This document shows positions 7,854 to 52,659 of a stretch of DNA of 64,000 nt, piece by piece. The stretch's first letter is position 1; the number at the start of each line of letters is the position of its first letter. Source of the DNA: Ostreococcus mediterraneus (taxonomy: Eukaryota > Chlorophyta > Mamiellophyceae > Mamiellales > Bathycoccaceae); assembly GCA_012295225.1 (NCBI GenBank), contig WMKK01000009.1, forward strand, positions 393,909-457,908, read 5' to 3'. A program made the position numbers and the translations under genes. The notes under the pieces were generated by a model, which had not been told where the DNA came from, ran no database searches, and worked only from the letters and a program-made list of their open reading frames with translations.

Positions 7854-9086
7854 TTAACCGACGTTGGCATCCGTGAGCGAGGCGCACGTGCATTGTCCAG
7901 CGCTCGTCATCATGGGCGCGCCTTTCCAGTTTGCGCCCTTCGAACCGTCGGTGCCCAAACCTTGTGAAACATCTTCCCAAATTTTCTTCTTCGCCACCTT
8001 ATTCACGCCGTGTGGTTCAATATTCTCAGCGTCTCCCCACGTGATACGCTCACCAGGAGTCGATCCTTCAGGGGCCACGAGGAGTTCGACATTTTCATGT
8101 GCCGCGTCAGACGCCGCGAGCAACATCCCGTTTGATTTCACACCCGCCATATTACGAGGCTTCAAGTTCGCCACGACGACAACAAGCTTACCTAACACAT
8201 CATCCTTACTCATATACTGTGCCAAGCCCGAACAAATCAAACGTGGTTCGCCTTCGCCGCATTCTACGGTTTCAATATACAACTTGTCGCTCTCCGGGTG
8301 GTTTTCGACGCTCAATACCTTTCCAACCTTCAACTCCATACCGAGCAAGTCTTCGGTCAACTCTGCGCTCGCCACCGACCCACCCGATGCTGCTGACGCC
8401 GCATCTGCGCTCGCCCCGCTCCCAAAGTCCGTCCCTACGCTTCCGCCCGCCGCCGGCACCTTGATGAACGGCGCCTCCCAGTTACTACTCTCTTTCAACA
8501 TGGCTTCAATATTATCAAACTCCACGGGTTCATCTTCGCGCATCCAATCTTCCGCCATCAAATTTTCTCTCCCAGGCGCTTCATACTCCTCGACGTCCGA
8601 TAAATCTAACTCCCGAAGCTGTCCAAACCAATTAATGATCCCGTGCACCTTTGGCGTCCAGTCTGCGATTTCCTCGTCGGTGATGTCCATCGCCGCCATC
8701 TCTGCGAGCGCGCGCAAATCCGGTAACGGCGGCAACGGCGGTAAATCTTCCGGCGCTACGCGCTTAATATTCACCGTCGTCGGGTTCTGCTCTTCATCGA
8801 GCTTTATCGGCGTCGATTTCGCATCGAAAGCCGCTGGGCGCCAGGACGTCCTTGACGACGACGTCGTTCGCGCGCGTCGCCACGCGCTCTGACGCGCCGC
8901 GGGTGCCGAGGCGGAGACAGAAATCATATCGGTCGATGCGCGTGCGCGTGTCGTGACGTGCGCGTGTCGTGGTGCGTGTGCGAGCGCGAACGAATGGCGC
9001 GCCACCACTCGCAAGGGTTTCCTCGCGACACCGCGGGTCAACAGACACATCGCGCGACGGTCCATCTTCCCCCGGCGTCGGCACAC
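7854..9086 (-). CDS. GatC fused to an EMAPII-type tRNA-binding domain
   Basis: 410 aa. Residues 1-~90 are rich in Arg, Ala and Ser and look like an organelle targeting peptide. Residues ~122-210 match GatC, the small subunit of Glu-tRNA(Gln)/Asp-tRNA(Asn) amidotransferase (LRALAEMAAMDITDEEIADW; later NLMAEDWMREDEP). After a Gly/Ala/Ser linker (~211-242), residues ~247-410 are a tRNA-binding OB-fold of the Arc1p/EMAPII/TyrRS-C type (VGKVLSVENHPESDKLYIE; LKPRNMAGVKSNGMLLAAS). GatC normally stands alone at ~100-150 aa. The fusion would give organellar GatCAB its own tRNA-binding arm; that role is inference. The reading frame runs unbroken through linker and both domains. The start is uncertain; ATGs exist at 9086 and 9065. 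Confidence 0.88.
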   Translation of the reverse strand: MCRRRGKMDRRAMCLLTRGVARKPLRVVARHSFALAHAPRHAHVTTRARASTDMISVSASAPAARQSAWRRARTTSSSRTSWRPAAFDAKSTPIKLDEEQNPTTVNIKRVAPEDLPPLPPLPDLRALAEMAAMDITDEEIADWTPKVHGIINWFGQLRELDLSDVEEYEAPGRENLMAEDWMREDEPVEFDNIEAMLKESSNWEAPFIKVPAAGGSVGTDFGSGASADAASAASGGSVASAELTEDLLGMELKVGKVLSVENHPESDKLYIETVECGEGEPRLICSGLAQYMSKDDVLGKLVVVVANLKPRNMAGVKSNGMLLAASDAAHENVELLVAPEGSTPGERITWGDAENIEPHGVNKVAKKKIWEDVSQGLGTDGSKGANWKGAPMMTSAGQCTCASLTDANVG

Positions 9087-9162
9087 GCGCGCGCGCGTCA
9101 GACCGCGCCGACACCGCCGCGGGACGACGCGAGGGAATACGTTTTAATTTTCACGCTCGCGC

Positions 9163-10312
9163 ATGGCGCGCGTGACGCTCGAGTTGCTGCGTCGACGCGC
9201 CGAACATAACGACGGGGTGCTGCACACGCTGGAGGAGGTGGCGTTGCACCAGTGCGAGCTCGAGCGTGTGGAGGTGATACAGGATGTGTGTCGGGAATTG
9301 AGGATTGCGTTGATGCAAGGAAATGAAATCTCGAAGATTGGTGCGTGATGATATCGTGTGTGCGTGAGCGTTGGAGAGAGCTGGGGATGCGCTCGCTCGC
9401 ACCCGCCAACGTGACTTTGGACTAACCACCGCGAGCGCAGAAAACGTACGCAGGCTCAAGAATCTCGAATACCTGAATTTAGCGATGAATAAGATAACGA
9501 TGATTGAAAACCTTGAAGGATGTGAGTCGCTAGTCAAACTTGATCTCACGATGAATGAGATTGCGATGCGTGGATTGTTGAACGTTTCAACGCTCGCGGT
9601 CAACGTGCACCTGCGGGAATTGTTTCTCATGGGTAATCCGTGCGCCGATGCCGCTGAAGATTATCGATCGTTTGTAATTATGAGCGTGCCGCAAATCACT
9701 CACCTTGATGGATCGGTGATTACCCCTTTGGAACGCATCATTGCTCGACAGAATTATACGCGCGTAGTGCGAGAGTTTGAGATCGTTGCCGCAAACGAAG
9801 ACGTAAAGCAGACAACAATCGACACTACTAGTGCGAGTGATGTTTCAGTCACGCCTGACATACATCACAATAATCACGCAGTAGTGCACTCAAATGCGTT
9901 CGACACGCTACCGGACGATTTTGCCGACGTCAAGCAGAAAAATCAAGGTGACTTTGTCTTTACGCTCACCGAATCCGAAGACGAATCCGCGCTCGAGCTT
10001 GAAGTGCGCCTCAACACATTTATTGACACGTCATTGATTCACGTCGATATTCAACCTCGAGTGGTGAGAGTGAAAATTAAAGGCGATTTATTGCAGCTGC
10101 GGCTATCACATGAGGTAGCCACAGATGCGAGCGTCGCTTCGCGCTCAAAATCAACCGGCAAACTTTTGATTACTATGCCTAAACTAAACTGGCACGTGAA
10201 ACCACGACTCAAAGGTTCACGTAAAACTAGCGCCAACCCATGCGATCCAGTCGCAAATGTGTCGTACTGCAGTAATGACACAGCTGCCGAAGAGCCACCA
10301 GACGTGATGTAA
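9163..10312 (+). CDS. DNAAF11: Dynein axonemal assembly factor 11 (LRRC6), two exons
   Basis: Exons 9163-9340 and 9441-10312; the 100-base intron starts GTGCGT, ends GCAG and has a CTAAC branch site at 9422-9426. Splicing is in frame and gives 349 aa. Residues 1-60 (ELLRRRAEHNDGVLHTLEEV) and the LRR block (LKNLEYLNLAMNKI; VHLRELFLMGNPCADAAEDY) follow animal LRRC6 closely. The C-terminus (~270-335; TFIDTSLIHVDIQPRVVRVK) is the CS-like domain typical of the family. The lysine-rich middle of the animal protein (466 aa) is shortened. DNAAF11 helps preassemble ciliary dynein arms in the cytoplasm, which is odd if this alga lacks flagella. Confidence 0.87.
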
Positions 10313-16596: not shown

Positions 16597-16789
16597 CGCG
16601 GCGCGCGAGTGACGCCCCAGCGGCGCGCGCGTCCAAGTGTCCCGGGACGGCGATGTGGAGTACATATGGGTAAACAGTGTGAATCCCCATCCGTCGGTTC
16701 ACAGGGAGCCTCATCATTATCCACAACGTGGTGCCATTCGCGTCGCTCGTCGGCACACCGCGACTCGCGCGCGCGCCCCGTCGCAAGCG

Positions 16790-17854
16790 ATGACGGCGAA
16801 CACTCGCGATGCGCCCGTGCCGAATGCGTTCGATGCCGTGTACGCGTCGTGCGCGCGACGCGCGTTCGGGCCGATGACGATGGGTGGATTAGCGCACAGG
16901 GGTGCGACGACGCCCTCGGCGACGGCGACGGGGGGCGCGATGACGACGTTCGCGGCGTCGAGCGCGAATGAAGCTTCGGCTGGGGTGAAATTTGCAAAGG
17001 ATGTGTTTGCGGGCACGTGTGGGGGGATTACGGTGACGTTGCTCGGGCATCCATTCGACACGGTGAAGGTGCTGTTGCAGACGCAGAGTGCGAAGAATCC
17101 AGTGTACTCGGGCGCGGTGGATGCGGCGTCGAAGGTGATTAAATCTGAGGGCGTGGCGGGGTTATATCGTGGTGTGCAATCGCCTCTCGCGGGGCAGATG
17201 TTTTTCAGGGCGACGTTGTTCTTTGCGTATGCGAGAGCAAAGGAATTTGTGGGGGTGTCGCCGGATGACCCGTTGAGCTATTGCAAAGCGGGCGGCTTGG
17301 CTTGGTTGGCGGGCACGTTTTTTGAGTCTCCGATTGATTTGTACAAGTCGCAATGGCAGTGTCAATTAATTAAGACCAAGGCGGACCCGAATTACAAGTC
17401 GCCGTACGCCAGCGTGGGGGATGTAGTGAAGGAGTCGTGGAAGCACAACGGCATTCGCGGGCCGTACCAAGCGTTTAGCGCCACGCTCGCGAGAAACTTG
17501 CCCGCTGGCGCGGTGTACTTTGGTGTGTTTGAGAACACCAAAAATGCATTTGCGGCGCGCAATGAAGACGGTAAGGCGACCAACTTACAAATCATCGCTT
17601 CTGGTGGTATTGGTGGGTTCTTCTACTGGTCTTTGTTCTACCCAATCGATGTCATCAAGTCGGCGTTGATGACGGATTCCGTGGTCCCGGCGCAACGCAA
17701 GTACAGCGGCTTCATGGACGCCGCTGGCAAATTATACGCTGGTGGTGGTGTGCGCGCGTTCTACCGCGGTCTCGTACCGTGCTTGTTGCGCGCGTCACCC
17801 GCCAACGCCGGGATGTTATTTTGCGTCGACTTTGTGCGACGCGCCATCGACTAG
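16790..17854 (+). CDS. Mitochondrial carrier family protein (SLC25)
   Basis: 354 aa from the ATG at 16790. Residues 1-~62 are an N-terminal extension before the carrier fold. Three tandem repeats carry the carrier signatures HPFDTVKVLLQT, SPIDLYKSQWQ and YPIDVIKSALM, with six predicted membrane helices. Spacing and motifs resemble the carnitine/acylcarnitine and basic amino-acid branch, but substrate cannot be assigned from sequence. The second repeat signature ends in an unusual KSQWQCQ. It shares a ~190-base upstream region with the divergent APC13 gene. Confidence 0.9.
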   Translation: MTANTRDAPVPNAFDAVYASCARRAFGPMTMGGLAHRGATTPSATATGGAMTTFAASSANEASAGVKFAKDVFAGTCGGITVTLLGHPFDTVKVLLQTQSAKNPVYSGAVDAASKVIKSEGVAGLYRGVQSPLAGQMFFRATLFFAYARAKEFVGVSPDDPLSYCKAGGLAWLAGTFFESPIDLYKSQWQCQLIKTKADPNYKSPYASVGDVVKESWKHNGIRGPYQAFSATLARNLPAGAVYFGVFENTKNAFAARNEDGKATNLQIIASGGIGGFFYWSLFYPIDVIKSALMTDSVVPAQRKYSGFMDAAGKLYAGGGVRAFYRGLVPCLLRASPANAGMLFCVDFVRRAID

Positions 17855-27477: not shown

Positions 27478-29409
27478 TCATTGGAACAACCGCGCGAGAT
27501 TCGCGGCGGTGATTTTCGTGTGTGGAGGGATGTCTACTTCGTGCGTCGTCATACGTGCGTCGTCCGGCGACGCATTAGGCGGCGCGAGATCGGGATCGGG
27601 ATCGGGATCGATGGCCTTGGATGTGGCCGCGGACGCGTTCACGTCCGCGTCCAATGTTTTCTTCTCTATCGGCGCCGACGACGTCACCACCGGTGTGCTC
27701 GTCGTCGCAAAGTGCTTGGATTTCATAGACTCGAGCCATTCGATGTCTCGTTGTTTCTTGACTCGCCTCGTCGGCGTCGGCGGCGGTGGATTCGGCGTTG
27801 AACGTGGACGCGAAACCGCAGGTGGAGGCGCTTCAATCGCGTCGTCGCCAGGTCGCGCCGAACACGCTGAATACGCCACGTACATCTCCCGTAGCGTCGC
27901 CTTGGATAACCCAGTGTGTGTTTCTAACGTTGGTGGCGCGCGTAACGTCTCACGTAATCGCTCGAGGCTTTCAATCGCTCGCTCAAGGTTGACGTCGGTG
28001 AGCCAATGATATGTCGTCTGCGCGCCGCGACCGACGCCTAATCGAAGCGAGAACGCCCGAGCGCTCGAATCATTCGCGAGCGGATGCGTGATGACCGGTA
28101 CACCCAGTGCATGCGCACATTTTCTGTCATTCTCGTCCCCGCTCATCGCCGCGCGACGGAACGCTTCGGCACGATTGAATGATACGCGCTGCAAAACTGT
28201 CTCTTCGCGACGCGGCGTCGATCGCGTCGCGAGGCAGACGAGCGAGTCATCCATATTGAGCCATACCTCGATCGCCGCACCCGTGTGCCTATGCGCGGCA
28301 TCTACTTTTAAAGTCATCGCACCGCGGAGTTTTCCGGCGTTGGTGCCGTAGCATGGGAGTAGCGCGCCGCATCGGACGCGAGCGATGGGTTCGTCCAGCG
28401 CGCGCGACACGAGCGCGACATCTTCAATGTTCAAGAAAATGCGGGCATTCTTCACCGCGGTTCTATACATGTGCTTTGAAGATGGATTTCTTTGCCCTTG
28501 AGATGTGCTCGCGACTGCGTCGTCGTCATCGTCATCTGTGACGCGTTCGAGATGTTTGAGCTTGACGTCGACGCCGATTTGCATCGAGCTCGATTCGAGC
28601 GCGTCGACGAGCGCGTCGTCAGCGTGATTGGCAAATTCAGCGTGCGTGTCCCGACATCCAGCGGCGAATGGTACAGGCAGGGCGGAGGACTGTCGTTCGG
28701 GTGCGACATCGTCATCGCCTCCTTCGGCGTCGTCATCGCGAATGAATCCGCTCGCGACGATGGCGCGTTTGAGCTCGCATGCGGCATTCAGACCGACGGA
28801 AACTCCGCACTCGGTGCACGCGCCCAACGACGCACCCAAGCACGCGCCGCTATCCATCGCACAGCAACGGCATAATGTACGAATGACATTGACCTCTGCC
28901 GCCGTGGCATTCGTCGAGGCGGCCCGTAAGACGTGGCATTTTGCGTGTGCGCGAAGCGTCGACCGCAAGATGGCCGTGGCGTCCTCGCTCGACATGTCAA
29001 GCGAATCGCGCGTGATGAGCACGATTTCTCGAAACACGTCACCACAACCACCATCACGAAACGCTTTTAAATTCAACGTCGCGAGCTTCATCGCCGCGAT
29101 GACATCCATCATGAATTCCGCGTCGCTCGCGCTCGCCAACGCCGTTTCAAAATCATAGTCCCGCGTCAAAGGCATCACCATTTTGCGTCCACACCGTCGT
29201 CGCCTCAATTCATCGCACCTCCACGACCGCGCCCGCGACGCACATAAAACTAACCCACACGCCGCCGGCGCGCGCGCGCGCACGATCGCGCGCACGACAT
29301 CCATTGCCGCGGTCCTCGTCGCCGTGCGCTTCGCACTATCTTCTGTCCAATCCAACACAAAAACCATCACTCCACGCGCGCGCGCCATCGTACCGCCCGC
29401 GCACGCCAT
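27478..29409 (-). CDS. Unrecognised ~640-aa protein, possible vWFA-like N-terminus
   Basis: 643 aa from the ATG at 29409 (alternatives at 29388 and 29367). I do not recognise the family. Residues ~10-180 look like an alpha/beta domain opening with a hydrophobic strand ending in Asp (VMVFVLDWTEDS) and a later strand FREIVLITRDSLDMSSEDA, as in von Willebrand A folds without a clear MIDAS. A Cys cluster follows (CRCCAMDSGACLG, then CTEC), possibly zinc-binding. The middle has a mixed alpha/beta region; the C-terminal ~170 residues are Pro/Asp-rich and disordered, ending in a basic helix (RRVKKQRDIEWLESMKSK). The frame is long, Cys-patterned and free of stops, so it is a real gene. The transcription/repair vWA group (TFIIH, treslin) was considered without proof. 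Confidence 0.6.
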   Translation of the reverse strand: MACAGGTMARARGVMVFVLDWTEDSAKRTATRTAAMDVVRAIVRARAPAACGLVLCASRARSWRCDELRRRRCGRKMVMPLTRDYDFETALASASDAEFMMDVIAAMKLATLNLKAFRDGGCGDVFREIVLITRDSLDMSSEDATAILRSTLRAHAKCHVLRAASTNATAAEVNVIRTLCRCCAMDSGACLGASLGACTECGVSVGLNAACELKRAIVASGFIRDDDAEGGDDDVAPERQSSALPVPFAAGCRDTHAEFANHADDALVDALESSSMQIGVDVKLKHLERVTDDDDDDAVASTSQGQRNPSSKHMYRTAVKNARIFLNIEDVALVSRALDEPIARVRCGALLPCYGTNAGKLRGAMTLKVDAAHRHTGAAIEVWLNMDDSLVCLATRSTPRREETVLQRVSFNRAEAFRRAAMSGDENDRKCAHALGVPVITHPLANDSSARAFSLRLGVGRGAQTTYHWLTDVNLERAIESLERLRETLRAPPTLETHTGLSKATLREMYVAYSACSARPGDDAIEAPPPAVSRPRSTPNPPPPTPTRRVKKQRDIEWLESMKSKHFATTSTPVVTSSAPIEKKTLDADVNASAATSKAIDPDPDPDLAPPNASPDDARMTTHEVDIPPHTKITAANLARLFQ

Positions 29410-29569
29410 CGGCACTGCGCGCGTCAATTTTTCTCCTGCGCGATGCGCGCGCCGTCGCGCGATACGCACTCGTCGTGCGCGTCGCAATGGCGCGACATTG
29501 CAGCATCACTGAGCGTTTTTTTCTTGAGCGTTTCCATGCCGAGCGAGCGCATCCGCATACGCGCGCGCG

Positions 29570-32316: not shown

Positions 32317-34221
32317 ATGCCTACAGACGCACGCCGCCGCCGGGACACAAAGCTCAAGTTAGCGCCACCACCGAGCACGCTCACGCTGCCGCGCGCCAAG
32401 GTTGAGAGCGCGCACAAGCTTGCGTTGCCGCGATGGCTATCGATGCCGAACGCCGCGGCGGCGTCGTGCGTGGCGGTGCTCGTGACGAACCCGATGGACC
32501 GCGCGAAGACGCTGATGCAGCTCCCGGGCGCGGGCGCGGCTTGGGGAAAGAATATGCGCGAAGTCATGATGAATATGGTGAAAAAAGAGGGCGCGTTGAG
32601 AGGTCCGTATAGAGGTTTACCCGTGGCCATGGTTCGTGAGAGTTCAAAGAATGTCTTCCGCATTGGGTTGTTTCCGGCGGCGCTCATGGCGTTGCACCCA
32701 GACGATGCGACGCCGGCGCCGGCGTGGAAGAGATTCGTCGCCGGATGCATCAGCGGTGCCGTTGGTGCGGTATCGAGTAATCCATTCGATTTGATCAAGA
32801 CTCGCATGCACGTGCCGGCGGTGATGTGTGATTACGATAACGGTGTGATGGCGTTTAAGAGCATTTGCAAGAATGAAGGGTGGAGGACGTTGTACAAGGG
32901 CGTCGGCGCGTCAGTGGCGAGAGATATGTTGGGTTCAAGCGTGAATTTGACCGTACAATCGATCGCGAGCGAAGCTTTGGTGAGAAATATGATTTTGTCC
33001 CCGGGATCTCCCGTGCTTGGGGCGTTGAGTGGTGTTTTAAGTGCCGCCGCGTCTGTGGCGGTGATGCAACCCATCGACACGTCTCGCGCGTACGTCTACC
33101 TCAAACCGCATTTACACAAGAACTCGATTCGAGCATTTAGGTACATAGTTCTCAGAGAAGGCCCATTGGCGCTCTACAAAGGTTCGCGCGCGCACTTTTT
33201 CCGCACAGCACCGCATTACGCGGCGATGTTCGCTTTATTGGAAATGATTACCGGCAGCGAACGTAAATGGTTGCTTGAACGCAACAAAACAGTGCTCGCC
33301 AACGTGCCGCTCTTTGACGCGTTGTCCATCGAACGTCGCACGCGTTTGGCCTCCATGGTGAAATCTAAAAAGTTCATGGCTGGAGAGGAAATTATCAGCG
33401 ACGGTGATTGTCCGGACGAGATGTACATCTTAACACAGGGGTGCGCGAAAATCGACCAGCTCAATAAAAACGCCAAAAAGAACAAGCGGGCGAGCGCGAA
33501 AAATAATATTACTACTAGCGCCGATGACGACTCTTCGGATTTGATCAATCGCGGAGGATACTTTGGGGAATCGTCGCTATTCGGTAAACCATCGATGAGC
33601 GAGAAAGTCACCGCGGTGAACGATGTGACGCTCATGGTTATCCCGCGCGAGGCGTACATGGAGTGCAGAGAATTTGGCGACGACGTCGGACCGTTTGGTC
33701 GCGGACGCGGTTTGGAATTAGACCCCACGAAAGAGCTCGACATGGCATGGAAGCGGTTGCGCTATGAACGCGTGCTCGGAAAGATTCCTGCCTTTGCAGA
33801 TTTAGGCGCGTACGAGCGTGCGATGGTCGTGAAGCAAGCCAAACGGTTTAGTTACAAACCCGGCGAAAAAGTCATGCGCAAGGGTGAAAACGACGACAAA
33901 TTCTATGTCGTCATCAAGGGTTCCGCGGTTTCTACCAAAGCCGATGGCGACATCGATCGCGTGGGTGTCGGGGAATCTCTCCCGCCCGATCGCATCTTAC
34001 GAAACTTTGGACCCGGGGGATATTTCGGTGAACTCGCGCTGCTCACCGGCGCGCCTCGACTGTCAACCGTCGTCGCCAAGGAGAACCTCGATGTCCTCGC
34101 CATCGATCGCGATGTCTTACAATCCTTACGCGAGCACTTGCCCACGTTGGAGGATGAAATTATTCGCAATCTTCGAAGGTTCGATCACATGGATTCGTTT
34201 ACCACTATGTCTATTGCTTAG
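32317..34221 (+). CDS. Mitochondrial carrier fused to tandem cyclic-nucleotide-binding domains
   Basis: 634 aa, single exon, ATG at 32317. Residues ~40-315 are a complete SLC25 carrier with three repeats, signatures TNPMDRAKTLMQ (58-69), SNPFDLIKTRM (154-164) and MQPIDTSRA (250-258). Without a stop the frame continues into two cNMP-binding domains, CNB1 ~330-450 and CNB2 ~488-612. The phosphate-binding cassette of CNB2 is intact, FGELALLTGAPR with Glu572 and Arg581, as in PKA/PKG regulatory domains. CNB1 keeps the Glu (YFGESSLFG) but lacks the Arg (PSMSE) and carries a Lys-rich insert at 383-405, so it probably does not bind. Proposed role: an inner-membrane transporter gated by cAMP or cGMP (inference). 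No clear presequence, as usual for carriers. Confidence 0.9.
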   Translation: MPTDARRRRDTKLKLAPPPSTLTLPRAKVESAHKLALPRWLSMPNAAAASCVAVLVTNPMDRAKTLMQLPGAGAAWGKNMREVMMNMVKKEGALRGPYRGLPVAMVRESSKNVFRIGLFPAALMALHPDDATPAPAWKRFVAGCISGAVGAVSSNPFDLIKTRMHVPAVMCDYDNGVMAFKSICKNEGWRTLYKGVGASVARDMLGSSVNLTVQSIASEALVRNMILSPGSPVLGALSGVLSAAASVAVMQPIDTSRAYVYLKPHLHKNSIRAFRYIVLREGPLALYKGSRAHFFRTAPHYAAMFALLEMITGSERKWLLERNKTVLANVPLFDALSIERRTRLASMVKSKKFMAGEEIISDGDCPDEMYILTQGCAKIDQLNKNAKKNKRASAKNNITTSADDDSSDLINRGGYFGESSLFGKPSMSEKVTAVNDVTLMVIPREAYMECREFGDDVGPFGRGRGLELDPTKELDMAWKRLRYERVLGKIPAFADLGAYERAMVVKQAKRFSYKPGEKVMRKGENDDKFYVVIKGSAVSTKADGDIDRVGVGESLPPDRILRNFGPGGYFGELALLTGAPRLSTVVAKENLDVLAIDRDVLQSLREHLPTLEDEIIRNLRRFDHMDSFTTMSIA

Positions 34222-49220: not shown

Positions 49221-50759
49221 ATGCGCCTTCGCGTGCGCGAGAGCGCGGCGGCGGCGGCGGCATCGACGACGGATGGGACGACGGTGAAGATTGACGTGGA
49301 TGACGCCATCACGCTCGAGGCGCTGCGCGCGGCGTGCGCGAGAGCGTTGCGTGGGGACTGGGTGGGTGCTGCTACCGCGGCATCGGGACGTTCGGTCAAA
49401 GTATCGCTCAATGGCGCGGATGATCTCGGATGCGGACGAGAGGAGAATGAATGCGTCAGTGTTCGTGCGCTCGGGGTGAATGGTGGGGATTTAGTGCGAT
49501 GCGTGTTCAATGAGGGGGCGAACGCGGGCGCGAATGCGAATGCGCGCGCGGCTTCGGAGAACGCTCTGGGAGAAGCGATGACGATGGACGAGGACGATGA
49601 AGCGAGTGCGGGAGATGGGACGATGATGGATGTTACGCCGGCGTTGTCGGTGTCGATTGAGGACGTGCGCGAGATCCCGCAGTGTGTGCGTGAGTTGCTC
49701 GAACGCGGCTCGGCGTCTGAAGGCGAAGTCGCGTTCGTCGCCGCGCACGCGTTAATGCTACATTTAGGCGCACGCGTGATTGGCGAAGTTGAATTGAGCG
49801 AAGGTTTAGCGCGCCGAGGGTGCTTTTCGGTGCGATATGCGCTGCCGATACCTGGGTCGGAGGAGAAGGTGACGTGCGCGGTGCGCGCGCAACCTGTGGA
49901 CGCGCACCTGTCGATGATTGGAACATTAGAAGTGGATAGCTCTGTGGCGTACGCCACGCTGTTGAACGTGAATGAGTACGTAACAAATGTACACGCTTTG
50001 TCTATAGAACAAATGCGAGGGATTTGGGCGAAAGTAAACGACGGCATGGTGAGCAAATTGTTTGCCGTGGCGAACGCGCAAGCCGCCGGCGTGCTTTCTC
50101 GCGGGACATTAATGTCACTCCCGTCAGACATCAAGAGCACGATTGTGAGTCATATGGATGCATATGGTTTGGCATACTGTGCCTGTACCTGTAAAGAATT
50201 ACATTCGATGTGCTCGAGAGATGAATTTTGGGAGCCGCTGTTGCGACGCGATTTCGGCGTGGAGCGACCAGAGCTCGGTGGCCGCCCGCTGCGTTCGGCG
50301 TACAACCGACTCGCCATCGAACGATCTATACATCGCGAAGCACAATTACGCGCTGAGTCTTACCATCCAATGCCCGGCCGTTTGCCGAGACACGGAGAGT
50401 ATATTGATCCCGAGCGCGACATCTATCCAGGACATCTTCCGGGACACGTTCCAGGCATCATCGGAGGCGATTACGACTTGTGGCCCGGTGGACTCAATCC
50501 AAACCCCCCTGGGTATGGTCGCGGTGGACTCGGCGGACCTGGTCGCATGCCGGATCCACGCGGTGGATGGCCGGGTGGTGGACCGCCGTTTCCGCCGCAA
50601 CCCGGCGGTTTACCGTACCGCCCAGACCCGGATGCCGATTTGCGAAACCCACTCGGCGGGCGAGGACGCGGCGGGCGAGGACACGATCCGCGATTTCCAG
50701 GCATGCCACCGAATCCTGGGTGGGATGGTCGACCACGACCGCCACCTGATTTCTTTTAG
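49221..50759 (+). CDS. FBXO7/PI31-like F-box protein
   Basis: 512 aa. Residues ~1-97 form a ubiquitin-like domain (MRLRVRESAAAAAAST; DDAITLEALRAACARAL). Residues ~150-285 resemble the FP domain shared by FBXO7 and proteasome inhibitor PI31. An F-box lies at ~293-345: LMSLPSDIKSTIVSHMDAYG and CTCKELHSMCSRDEFWEPLL. The C-terminal ~130 residues are a Gly/Pro/Arg-rich region with repeats of the PDPRGGWPGGG kind, ending RPRPPPDFF, like the proline-rich tail of FBXO7/PI31. FBXO7 is an SCF substrate receptor and binds the proteasome. This domain order is diagnostic. Confidence 0.85.
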   Translation: MRLRVRESAAAAAASTTDGTTVKIDVDDAITLEALRAACARALRGDWVGAATAASGRSVKVSLNGADDLGCGREENECVSVRALGVNGGDLVRCVFNEGANAGANANARAASENALGEAMTMDEDDEASAGDGTMMDVTPALSVSIEDVREIPQCVRELLERGSASEGEVAFVAAHALMLHLGARVIGEVELSEGLARRGCFSVRYALPIPGSEEKVTCAVRAQPVDAHLSMIGTLEVDSSVAYATLLNVNEYVTNVHALSIEQMRGIWAKVNDGMVSKLFAVANAQAAGVLSRGTLMSLPSDIKSTIVSHMDAYGLAYCACTCKELHSMCSRDEFWEPLLRRDFGVERPELGGRPLRSAYNRLAIERSIHREAQLRAESYHPMPGRLPRHGEYIDPERDIYPGHLPGHVPGIIGGDYDLWPGGLNPNPPGYGRGGLGGPGRMPDPRGGWPGGGPPFPPQPGGLPYRPDPDADLRNPLGGRGRGGRGHDPRFPGMPPNPGWDGRPRPPPDFF

Positions 50760-50913
50760 ACGTGTACAACAGTTTAGTTTCGTCGTCGCGCGTTTTAGGC
50801 GTACAATGGGTACATTTGTAGCTTTACAATTGAATCGGACATTTTGGTTCTACTGCTGTGTGTGTGTTCGCGTGCGCTTGAAAAGAATGTCGCAATGCGC
50901 GGTGCGTGTTGTA

Positions 50914-51636
50914 TTATTTCTGCTGCTTTCGCGCGGCAGCAGCTCGATCCGCTCGACGGTATCGCGCTTCTCGCTGCACCGTATTGAGCAACATTTCCGT
51001 GCGTCCCAATTTTCGTTCTTCTCGAGCAATCGCCTCCACCAATCGATCGCGCGCTTGCGCCAGCGAATTCAAAGTCTTCTCACTCGACTTTTTCATCTCC
51101 ATCAACTCATCGCGAAGCATGTTCGAGAACTCATCCGCGGCGTCGAGCGCCTCGGGCGTCGGCGCCACCGCCACCGCCACCGCGGGCGTAGGCGCGGGCA
51201 CCGCCGCCGTGGCCACCGCCGCCACGGGTACCGCCGCCGCACCCGCGCTCACCCCCGCTCGCGCCGCGCGTTCCTCGCGCACGCGCGCCATAATCTCCTG
51301 CACTTCGCGATCAATCTTCTCTTTTTCCTCGCGCTTCTCTTCGCTCATCCGCGCGTTGGCATCCCTCAACGCGTCCCGAAACGCATCGTTAAACAGCGGC
51401 GACTCCACCGCATTCGCCGCTTCAAGAATCGCGTGATCATCGAAAACCACCCCGTCGCCGTCATCGTCGCCGTGCACGCTCGCCGCGAGCGCGCCGAACG
51501 CATCGGCCACGTCGCGCCCACTCGACTGCGCGCGCAGCCATGGACGTCGCGCCCCGGCGCCGGGCAACGCGCGGCGCGCCGGATAACGCGCCAGCAGCGC
51601 GCGCGATGTCGTCGTCGTCATCGTCGTCGTCATCAT
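50914..51636 (-). CDS. Unrecognised mitochondrial coiled-coil protein
   Basis: 240 aa from the ATG at 51636 (a second ATG follows at 51633). Residues 1-~45 are basic with few acids (SRALLARYPARRALPGAGAR), a likely mitochondrial presequence. Then come an acidic segment (~50-75), a helical stretch NDAFRDALRDANARMSEEKR, an Ala/Val/Pro linker (~125-160), and a coiled coil at ~165-230 (FSNMLRDELMEMKKSSEKTL). No family recognised. It converges with the FBXO7-like gene (154 bases between stops) and diverges from the 2OG dioxygenase gene. Confidence 0.6.
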   Translation of the reverse strand: MMTTTMTTTTSRALLARYPARRALPGAGARRPWLRAQSSGRDVADAFGALAASVHGDDDGDGVVFDDHAILEAANAVESPLFNDAFRDALRDANARMSEEKREEKEKIDREVQEIMARVREERAARAGVSAGAAAVPVAAVATAAVPAPTPAVAVAVAPTPEALDAADEFSNMLRDELMEMKKSSEKTLNSLAQARDRLVEAIAREERKLGRTEMLLNTVQREARYRRADRAAAARKQQK

Positions 51637-51774
51637 CGTCGTCGAGCGCGTCGAGCGCGTCGAGCGCGTCGGTGTGTGCGGCGCGGCGCGCGTGATGAAA
51701 ACCTCGACAGAGAATATTCGAAACGGCACACCGCGCCTCGCACGCGCGACGCAGTGGCGACGCGCGGAGTCGCG

Positions 51775-52659
51775 ATGGGCATGGATGCGCGCGACGGTGC
51801 GCGACGCGCGCGTGGCGACGGCGGCGCGCGCGCGGTGCTGGCGAGGGTGATGGTGGCGTGCGCGGTGGCGTGCGTGGCGTGCGCGCAGCCAGCTCTTGGG
51901 ACACAAAGCGAGTGCGAATGCGTGCATTGGAGCGATCCGAGGCTGATATGCGCGCCACACGCGTATGAGGATGTGCTCGATGCGAGCGCGGCGCGACGGG
52001 TGCGGGATGCGGCGGTGACGTACGCGCAGAAGCACGGGTGGAAGGAGCACCGAGCGAATGGGGAGGATGATTTTGAGACGCAAGCGGTGTCGGTGTCGGA
52101 TTTACCGGAAGACGCTCGACGGGAGGTGATGGGTGTGTATGAGAATAAGATAATTCCATTGATGCGCGAGCAGTGCGTGATCGATGGGCACTTGAAGTTT
52201 GAAGAGGAGGAGTTTTTTGTGGTGAAGTACGGCGGCGGCGTGAAGTCGGTGGCGTCGCACAAGGATGGGAAACATTTGAGCTTTATTGCGTCGTTGAATA
52301 ACGTCACCGAATACGTGGGTGGTGGGAACGTGTTTAAAGGGCTAACATTCAGCGTGCCTCACGGTGGAGTGCATCATTTAAGTGATCACGAGATGAAACC
52401 GCTCGCCGTCGGTGGCGTCGTCGTGCACGGCGCAAACGTCGAGCACTCTTCCGTGGACGTGCACTCGGGCGAACGATACGTCTTGGTCGGTATGGCATAT
52501 GTTAATAAATCGTGCTGCTTTGACGTGTCGAGATTTATGAACAAGTGGGTGACTCGCTTGCTCATTCTCGTGTTTGCGCTCGTCTCTGTGATGTCTGGCG
52601 CCACAGAGTGGTTGCGCAAAAAGCCTTGGAGAGGAGAGCAGCACCAAAAAGTGTGGTGA
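51775..52659 (+). CDS. 2-oxoglutarate/Fe(II) dioxygenase, prolyl 4-hydroxylase-like, membrane-bound
   Basis: 294 aa from the ATG at 51775; the frame is open far upstream but only as an antisense shadow. Residues ~20-42 are hydrophobic (VLARVMVACAVACVACAQPA), a signal peptide or anchor, followed by a Cys-rich segment (SECECVHW). The catalytic fold has the His-x-Asp pair at His162/Asp164 (SHKDGKHLSF), the distal His at 224 and the 2-oxoglutarate Arg at 234 (SGERYVLVG). A second hydrophobic helix sits near the C-terminus (~260-280). Secretory-pathway prolyl or lysyl hydroxylase is likely; the substrate is not known. Confidence 0.8.
   Translation: MGMDARDGARRARGDGGARAVLARVMVACAVACVACAQPALGTQSECECVHWSDPRLICAPHAYEDVLDASAARRVRDAAVTYAQKHGWKEHRANGEDDFETQAVSVSDLPEDARREVMGVYENKIIPLMREQCVIDGHLKFEEEEFFVVKYGGGVKSVASHKDGKHLSFIASLNNVTEYVGGGNVFKGLTFSVPHGGVHHLSDHEMKPLAVGGVVVHGANVEHSSVDVHSGERYVLVGMAYVNKSCCFDVSRFMNKWVTRLLILVFALVSVMSGATEWLRKKPWRGEQHQKVW

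Follow-up and report, generated by a model that had tools for sequence, protein, structure and literature searches.

A mitochondrial-type carrier fused to two cyclic-nucleotide-binding domains in Ostreococcus mediterraneus

In reviews of the SLC25 carrier family, ligand sensing is assigned to domains that bind Ca2+ at the N-termini of APC and AGC (PMC6283063, PMC12410006, PMC7408384), and these two sensor fusions have been argued to be convergent (PMC6283063), which provides a precedent for sensor fusion in SLC25. Here we analysed a 64,000-nucleotide stretch of Ostreococcus mediterraneus DNA (the window), in which one gene encodes, as a single polypeptide, an SLC25 carrier followed by two cyclic-nucleotide-binding (CNB) domains. 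As in APC (SCaMC, SLC25A24), an SLC25 carrier and a soluble sensor share one chain, in a form that suggests a second-messenger switch of transport. APC responds to Ca2+ through EF-hands at its N-terminus, with an amphipathic helix in the linker, whereas the fusion bears a C-terminal CNB pair and its junction is too short for such a linker. AGC (SLC25A12/13) likewise has a carrier domain flanked by regulatory parts, but these comprise an EF-hand N-domain and a C-terminal amphipathic helix, with dimerisation and without CNB domains; in the fusion protein, no EF-hand was matched by Pfam at E-values up to 10.

The gene is a complete single-exon ORF on the forward strand (32317..34221), with an ATG start, 634 codons and a stop, and no internal stops. 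A Pfam search with the full protein detected three Mito_carr repeats (E = 3.6e-44) and then two cNMP_binding domains (2.4e-30). When scanned singly, every domain was still recognized (repeats, 9.4e-12, 5.6e-19 and 1.7e-13; CNB1, 3.8e-13; CNB2, 1.1e-17), so that a chance match is ruled out. The unbroken frame and the order of carrier and CNB domains had been read from the letters in an earlier note, and both readings were borne out. The same note placed this architecture outside the usual SLC25 repertoire, in agreement with the reviews, where the regulatory domains described are the EF-hands of APC and AGC. We found no report of an SLC25 carrier fused to a CNB domain in the literature searched; such a domain arrangement may already be catalogued in domain databases. 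Two candidate reports (PMC12223298, PMC2636879) were rejected, as the carrier and the CNB are separate proteins in both. Protein and degenerate-DNA scans of viral and genome contig collections without eukaryote genomes yielded no relatives, a result with no bearing on orthologues; the sole genome-contig match (L001) was discarded, being no carrier but a bacterial ORF in which EGWSTFYKG occurs by chance.

The fusion is best read as an SLC25 carrier whose sensor is of a PKA-like, cAMP-binding kind where its known counterparts sense Ca2+. We regard it as an even call that the carrier and the PKA-RI-like CNB module form one chain in which transport would be regulated by cAMP. If this is true, cAMP would act on a metabolite carrier directly, without a kinase, and cytosolic signalling and organelle metabolism would meet in one molecule. 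The protein would then add a third SLC25 sensor arrangement to those of APC and AGC, whose EF-hands lie at the other end of the chain.

The carrier half has intact matrix-side motifs. Repeat 1 (about residues 46-120; 32452..32676, +), repeat 2 (residues 134-222; 32716..32982, +) and repeat 3 (about residues 233-311; 33013..33249, +) were delimited by Pfam and by alignment to UCP1. The PX[DE]XX[KR] matrix motif is complete in all three, as PMDRAK at 59, PFDLIK at 156 and PIDTSR at 252, and Q68 is placed as a candidate glutamine brace. UCP1 and UCP2 (SLC25A7/A8) are the nearest solved carriers (1.4e-22 and 6.2e-22) and share the contact-point arginines, a proximity that holds for the PDB only and from which membership of the UCP subfamily does not follow. 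R107, R115, R202 and R296 coincide with UCP1 arginines, so each of contact points I (R107), II (R202-D203) and III (R296) bears an arginine. R-D is also found at contact point II of AGC, and under the contact-point rules this pair suggests amino-acid carriers; we treat R202-D203 as a weak lead in that direction. Together with the arginines, it tentatively points to a small substrate, either anionic or an amino acid, and we name an anionic carboxylate or amino acid as the most likely substrate class with low confidence.

SLC25 carriers are closed on the cytoplasmic side by a network built from [YF][DE]xx[KR] motifs (PMC7611774; PMC12410006). The UCP1 alignment places FPAAL (119-123), QSIAS (214-218) and LEMIT (308-312) at these positions, where UCP1 itself, which has no added sensor, carries YDTVQ, YDLMK and FEQLK. 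The [YF][DE]xx[KR] pattern, frequent but non-universal on the even helices of SLC25 members, was found at none of the three, which hold no basic residue and one acidic residue in all. The cytoplasmic salt-bridge motifs are near-absent and the matrix-gate motifs intact. Cytoplasmic motifs are missing from some accepted SLC25 members too (PMC7611774), and weak salt-bridge networks may permit uniport (PMC7611774; PMC12410006). The window contains another SLC25 gene (16613-17854, +), recognized by Mito_carr at 4.4e-57. It has no CNB domains, is 25% identical to the carrier of the fusion over the aligned part and keeps two of the three cytoplasmic motifs (FENTK, helix 4; VDFVR, helix 6). It offers a useful comparison from within the genome and shows the loss not to be genome-wide.

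The loss of the cytoplasmic network fits a gate partly assumed by the CNB pair, and it fits a loss of transport equally. In the latter case, the SLC25 part would no longer transport and would anchor in the membrane, or direct the import of, a cAMP-binding receptor or scaffold at an organelle surface. There is a parallel for this among SLC25 members without salt-bridge networks, which have non-transport roles (PMC7611774), as exemplified by MTCH1/2 and SLC25A46. In these proteins, however, neither network keeps its charges (PMC7611774), whereas the fusion has lost only those of the cytoplasmic one, and its three matrix motifs, candidate brace and three contact-point arginines are all retained. 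We consider a non-transporting carrier half unlikely. If the fusion is instead a regulated carrier, the closing mechanism of SLC25 gates could be tested clearly on its missing salt bridges, since the sensor domain may do part of this work.

We then turn to the sensor. CNB1 (about residues 321-474; 33277..33738, +) and CNB2 (residues 478-634; 33748..34218, +) scored 49.6 and 64.2 bits against cNMP_binding (PF00027), both above the curated cut-off of 27.5 bits. The phosphate-binding cassette of CNB2, FGELALLTGAPRLSTV, has both the Glu (E572) and the Arg (R581), and that of CNB1, FGESSLFGKPSMSEKV, retains E418 and has M427 where Arg is expected; the intact cassette in CNB2 and the lost Arg in CNB1, both claimed in the earlier note, were thus confirmed. 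From its cassette, conventional binding of a cyclic nucleotide by CNB1 is improbable. The best PDB matches of CNB2 were PKA RI-alpha (1rgs, 1.7e-26) and then a multi-CNB Toxoplasma protein (9ya0, 1e-25), followed by weaker matches to RII (2e-17), Plasmodium PKG (7e-17), human-type PKG 1 (8e-15) and bacterial MloK1 (8.6e-9). CNG/HCN and MloK1 likewise have a C-terminal CNB on a transmembrane transport domain, but they are channels rather than carriers and the match to their CNB is far weaker.

The likeness to RI-alpha, which has FGEIALLMNRPRAATV at the position of the CNB2 cassette, extends to the end of the chain. RNLRRF of CNB2 aligned to RNIQQY of RI-alpha, which contains the capping tyrosine (Y371), so that F622 supplies an aromatic residue at the capping position. 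The C-terminus, FDHMDSFTTMSI, aligned with YNSFVSLSV of 2qcs, the terminal SFTTMSI lying against SFVSLSV. In PKG, a Thr after the cassette Arg helps to select cGMP; CNB2 has Leu582 in place of this Thr, and cGMP was rejected as the first-choice ligand. With its closest likeness to PKA-RI, the aromatic F622 at the cap and Leu582, CNB2 is predicted to have cAMP as the likelier ligand. The earlier proposal of "cAMP or cGMP" is accordingly narrowed towards cAMP.

The tandem order is that of a PKA type I regulatory subunit, and CNB2 resembles CNB-B of RI-alpha in its cassette, aromatic cap position and C-terminus. A PKA-RI-like subunit seems to have been the source of the CNB pair. The fusion differs from a type I regulatory subunit in that a carrier forms its N-terminal part, the cassette Arg of CNB1 is lost and no inhibitor-type motif is present. 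No PKA inhibitor or pseudosubstrate segment (RRx[A/G/S]) precedes CNB1 in residues 311-330 (ITGSERKWLLERNKTVLANV), and Pfam detected no N-terminal docking/dimerisation domain in the part occupied by the carrier. Since neither a docking domain nor an inhibitor segment is present, we rejected the assignment of the protein as a PKA regulatory subunit. As a separate observation, [RK][RK]x[ST] sites occur only at residues 8 (RRDT), 390 (KRAS) and 509 (KRFS); KRAS lies in an extra Lys/Asp-rich loop inserted in CNB1 and is a candidate PKA site, a short motif that may have arisen by chance.

Alternatively, the CNB pair might be structural or bind another ligand, such as a nucleoside, with the carrier not regulated by cyclic nucleotides. 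Some trypanosomatid PKA regulatory subunits respond to nucleosides rather than cAMP, and the phosphate-binding Arg is gone from CNB1, as would suit this alternative. Against it, CNB2 retains the Glu, the Arg and the capping aromatic, and its closest match, PKA RI-alpha, binds cAMP; we judge such a role for the pair rather improbable.

How might a cAMP sensor at this end of the chain act on the carrier? Both termini of SLC25 carriers face the intermembrane space, and the mitochondrial outer membrane passes small solutes such as cAMP. The CNB domains would thus lie in the intermembrane space and sense cytosolic cAMP that has passed the outer membrane. Binding of cAMP by CNB2 could move the CNB pair, with CNB1 acting as a ligand-free relay that passes the movement on to carrier helix 6. 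The cytoplasmic side is closed by gate elements in which the even helices end (PMC12410006), so that the end of helix 6 would be one of three such elements, and its shift might alter the ease of gate closing and hence the transport rate. The mode of working would resemble that of APC (the ATP-Mg/Pi carrier) and AGC (the aspartate/glutamate carrier), both regulated by Ca2+, but cAMP would take the place of Ca2+ as the ligand. In this scheme, cAMP would directly govern what is exchanged over the inner mitochondrial membrane, as the earlier note suggested for cAMP or cGMP.

Because the cytoplasmic motifs are nearly gone, the matrix gate is intact and the CNB domains follow just after helix 6, the CNB pair may share in gating. 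The stronger version, in which the appended cAMP sensor has replaced the cytoplasmic salt-bridge gate and CNB2, upon binding cAMP at the intermembrane-space mouth, sets gating through helix 6 and so controls organelle metabolite exchange without a kinase, is put forward as a tentative, somewhat doubtful proposal. The AlphaFold2 model made without an alignment (pLDDT 30.5, pTM 0.19) was discarded, and a contact between the CNB domains and the carrier is accordingly unsupported by it.

The same regulation by cAMP might operate in the peroxisome, the plastid envelope or another membrane. Other organelles are served by some SLC25 members (PMC7565455), and PMP34 is an SLC25 member outside mitochondria (PMC7611774). 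The N-terminal extension (residues 1-42; 32317..32442, +), a possible targeting or loop region with a computed net charge of +7, also lacks a strong amphipathic helix (moment ≤0.26), as might be expected of a protein sent elsewhere. The inner mitochondrial membrane is nevertheless the site of most SLC25 members, which need no presequence, and nothing points to another site, leaving only a slim chance for a location outside mitochondria.

The alignment of the carrier to UCP1 stops at residue 311, and the CNB1 alignments begin at residues 321-325; the junction (about residues 312-324, TGSERKWLLERNK; 33250..33288, +), placed by the alignments and the coding signal, runs from helix 6 to the helical start of CNB1 over only 9-13 residues. 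The two alignments end and start so close together that another gene could not fit its start and control region between them. When trained on the neighbouring genes, a codon-usage score remained positive from the carrier through the junction (14.5, 10.3 and 12.6, in frame, in windows starting at 33157, 33247 and 33337) into the CNB domains, falling at the two ends of the gene; only the window at 33967 scored low (0.6), and an inserted loop of CNB2 lies there. Over the same interval, the remaining forward frames are interrupted by 28 and 24 stops, and those of the reverse strand by 17, 9 and 34. The continuous coding signal and the short junction therefore make two genes very unlikely, and we take the fusion as real. 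Although the gene was read from the DNA of one assembly alone, an artefact of the gene model or assembly, whether two genes or a retained intron, is highly improbable, as the single frame is free of stops with an unbroken codon signal, the junction is far below the length needed for a terminator and a promoter, and the domain alignments run through with no stretch requiring an intron. An intron in the CNB2 loop was likewise rejected, the extra stretch being only ~30 bases relative to RI-alpha.

Several other features of the window deserve mention. Its gene content and density would be in keeping with a small green alga. Two long open frames, of 675 codons (27478-29505, -) and 836 codons (50149-52659, +), had no Pfam match at 0.001 and may be either genes or chance frames. 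An ORF at 9368-10312 (+) combines a DNAAF11-like CS domain (4.9e-26) with leucine-rich repeats, as in a dynein-arm assembly factor; to our knowledge, flagella are absent from Ostreococcus and Bathycoccus. Finally, GatC (7.4e-10) and tRNA_bind (2.3e-29) occur in one open frame at 7854-9143 (-), an unusual-looking pairing.
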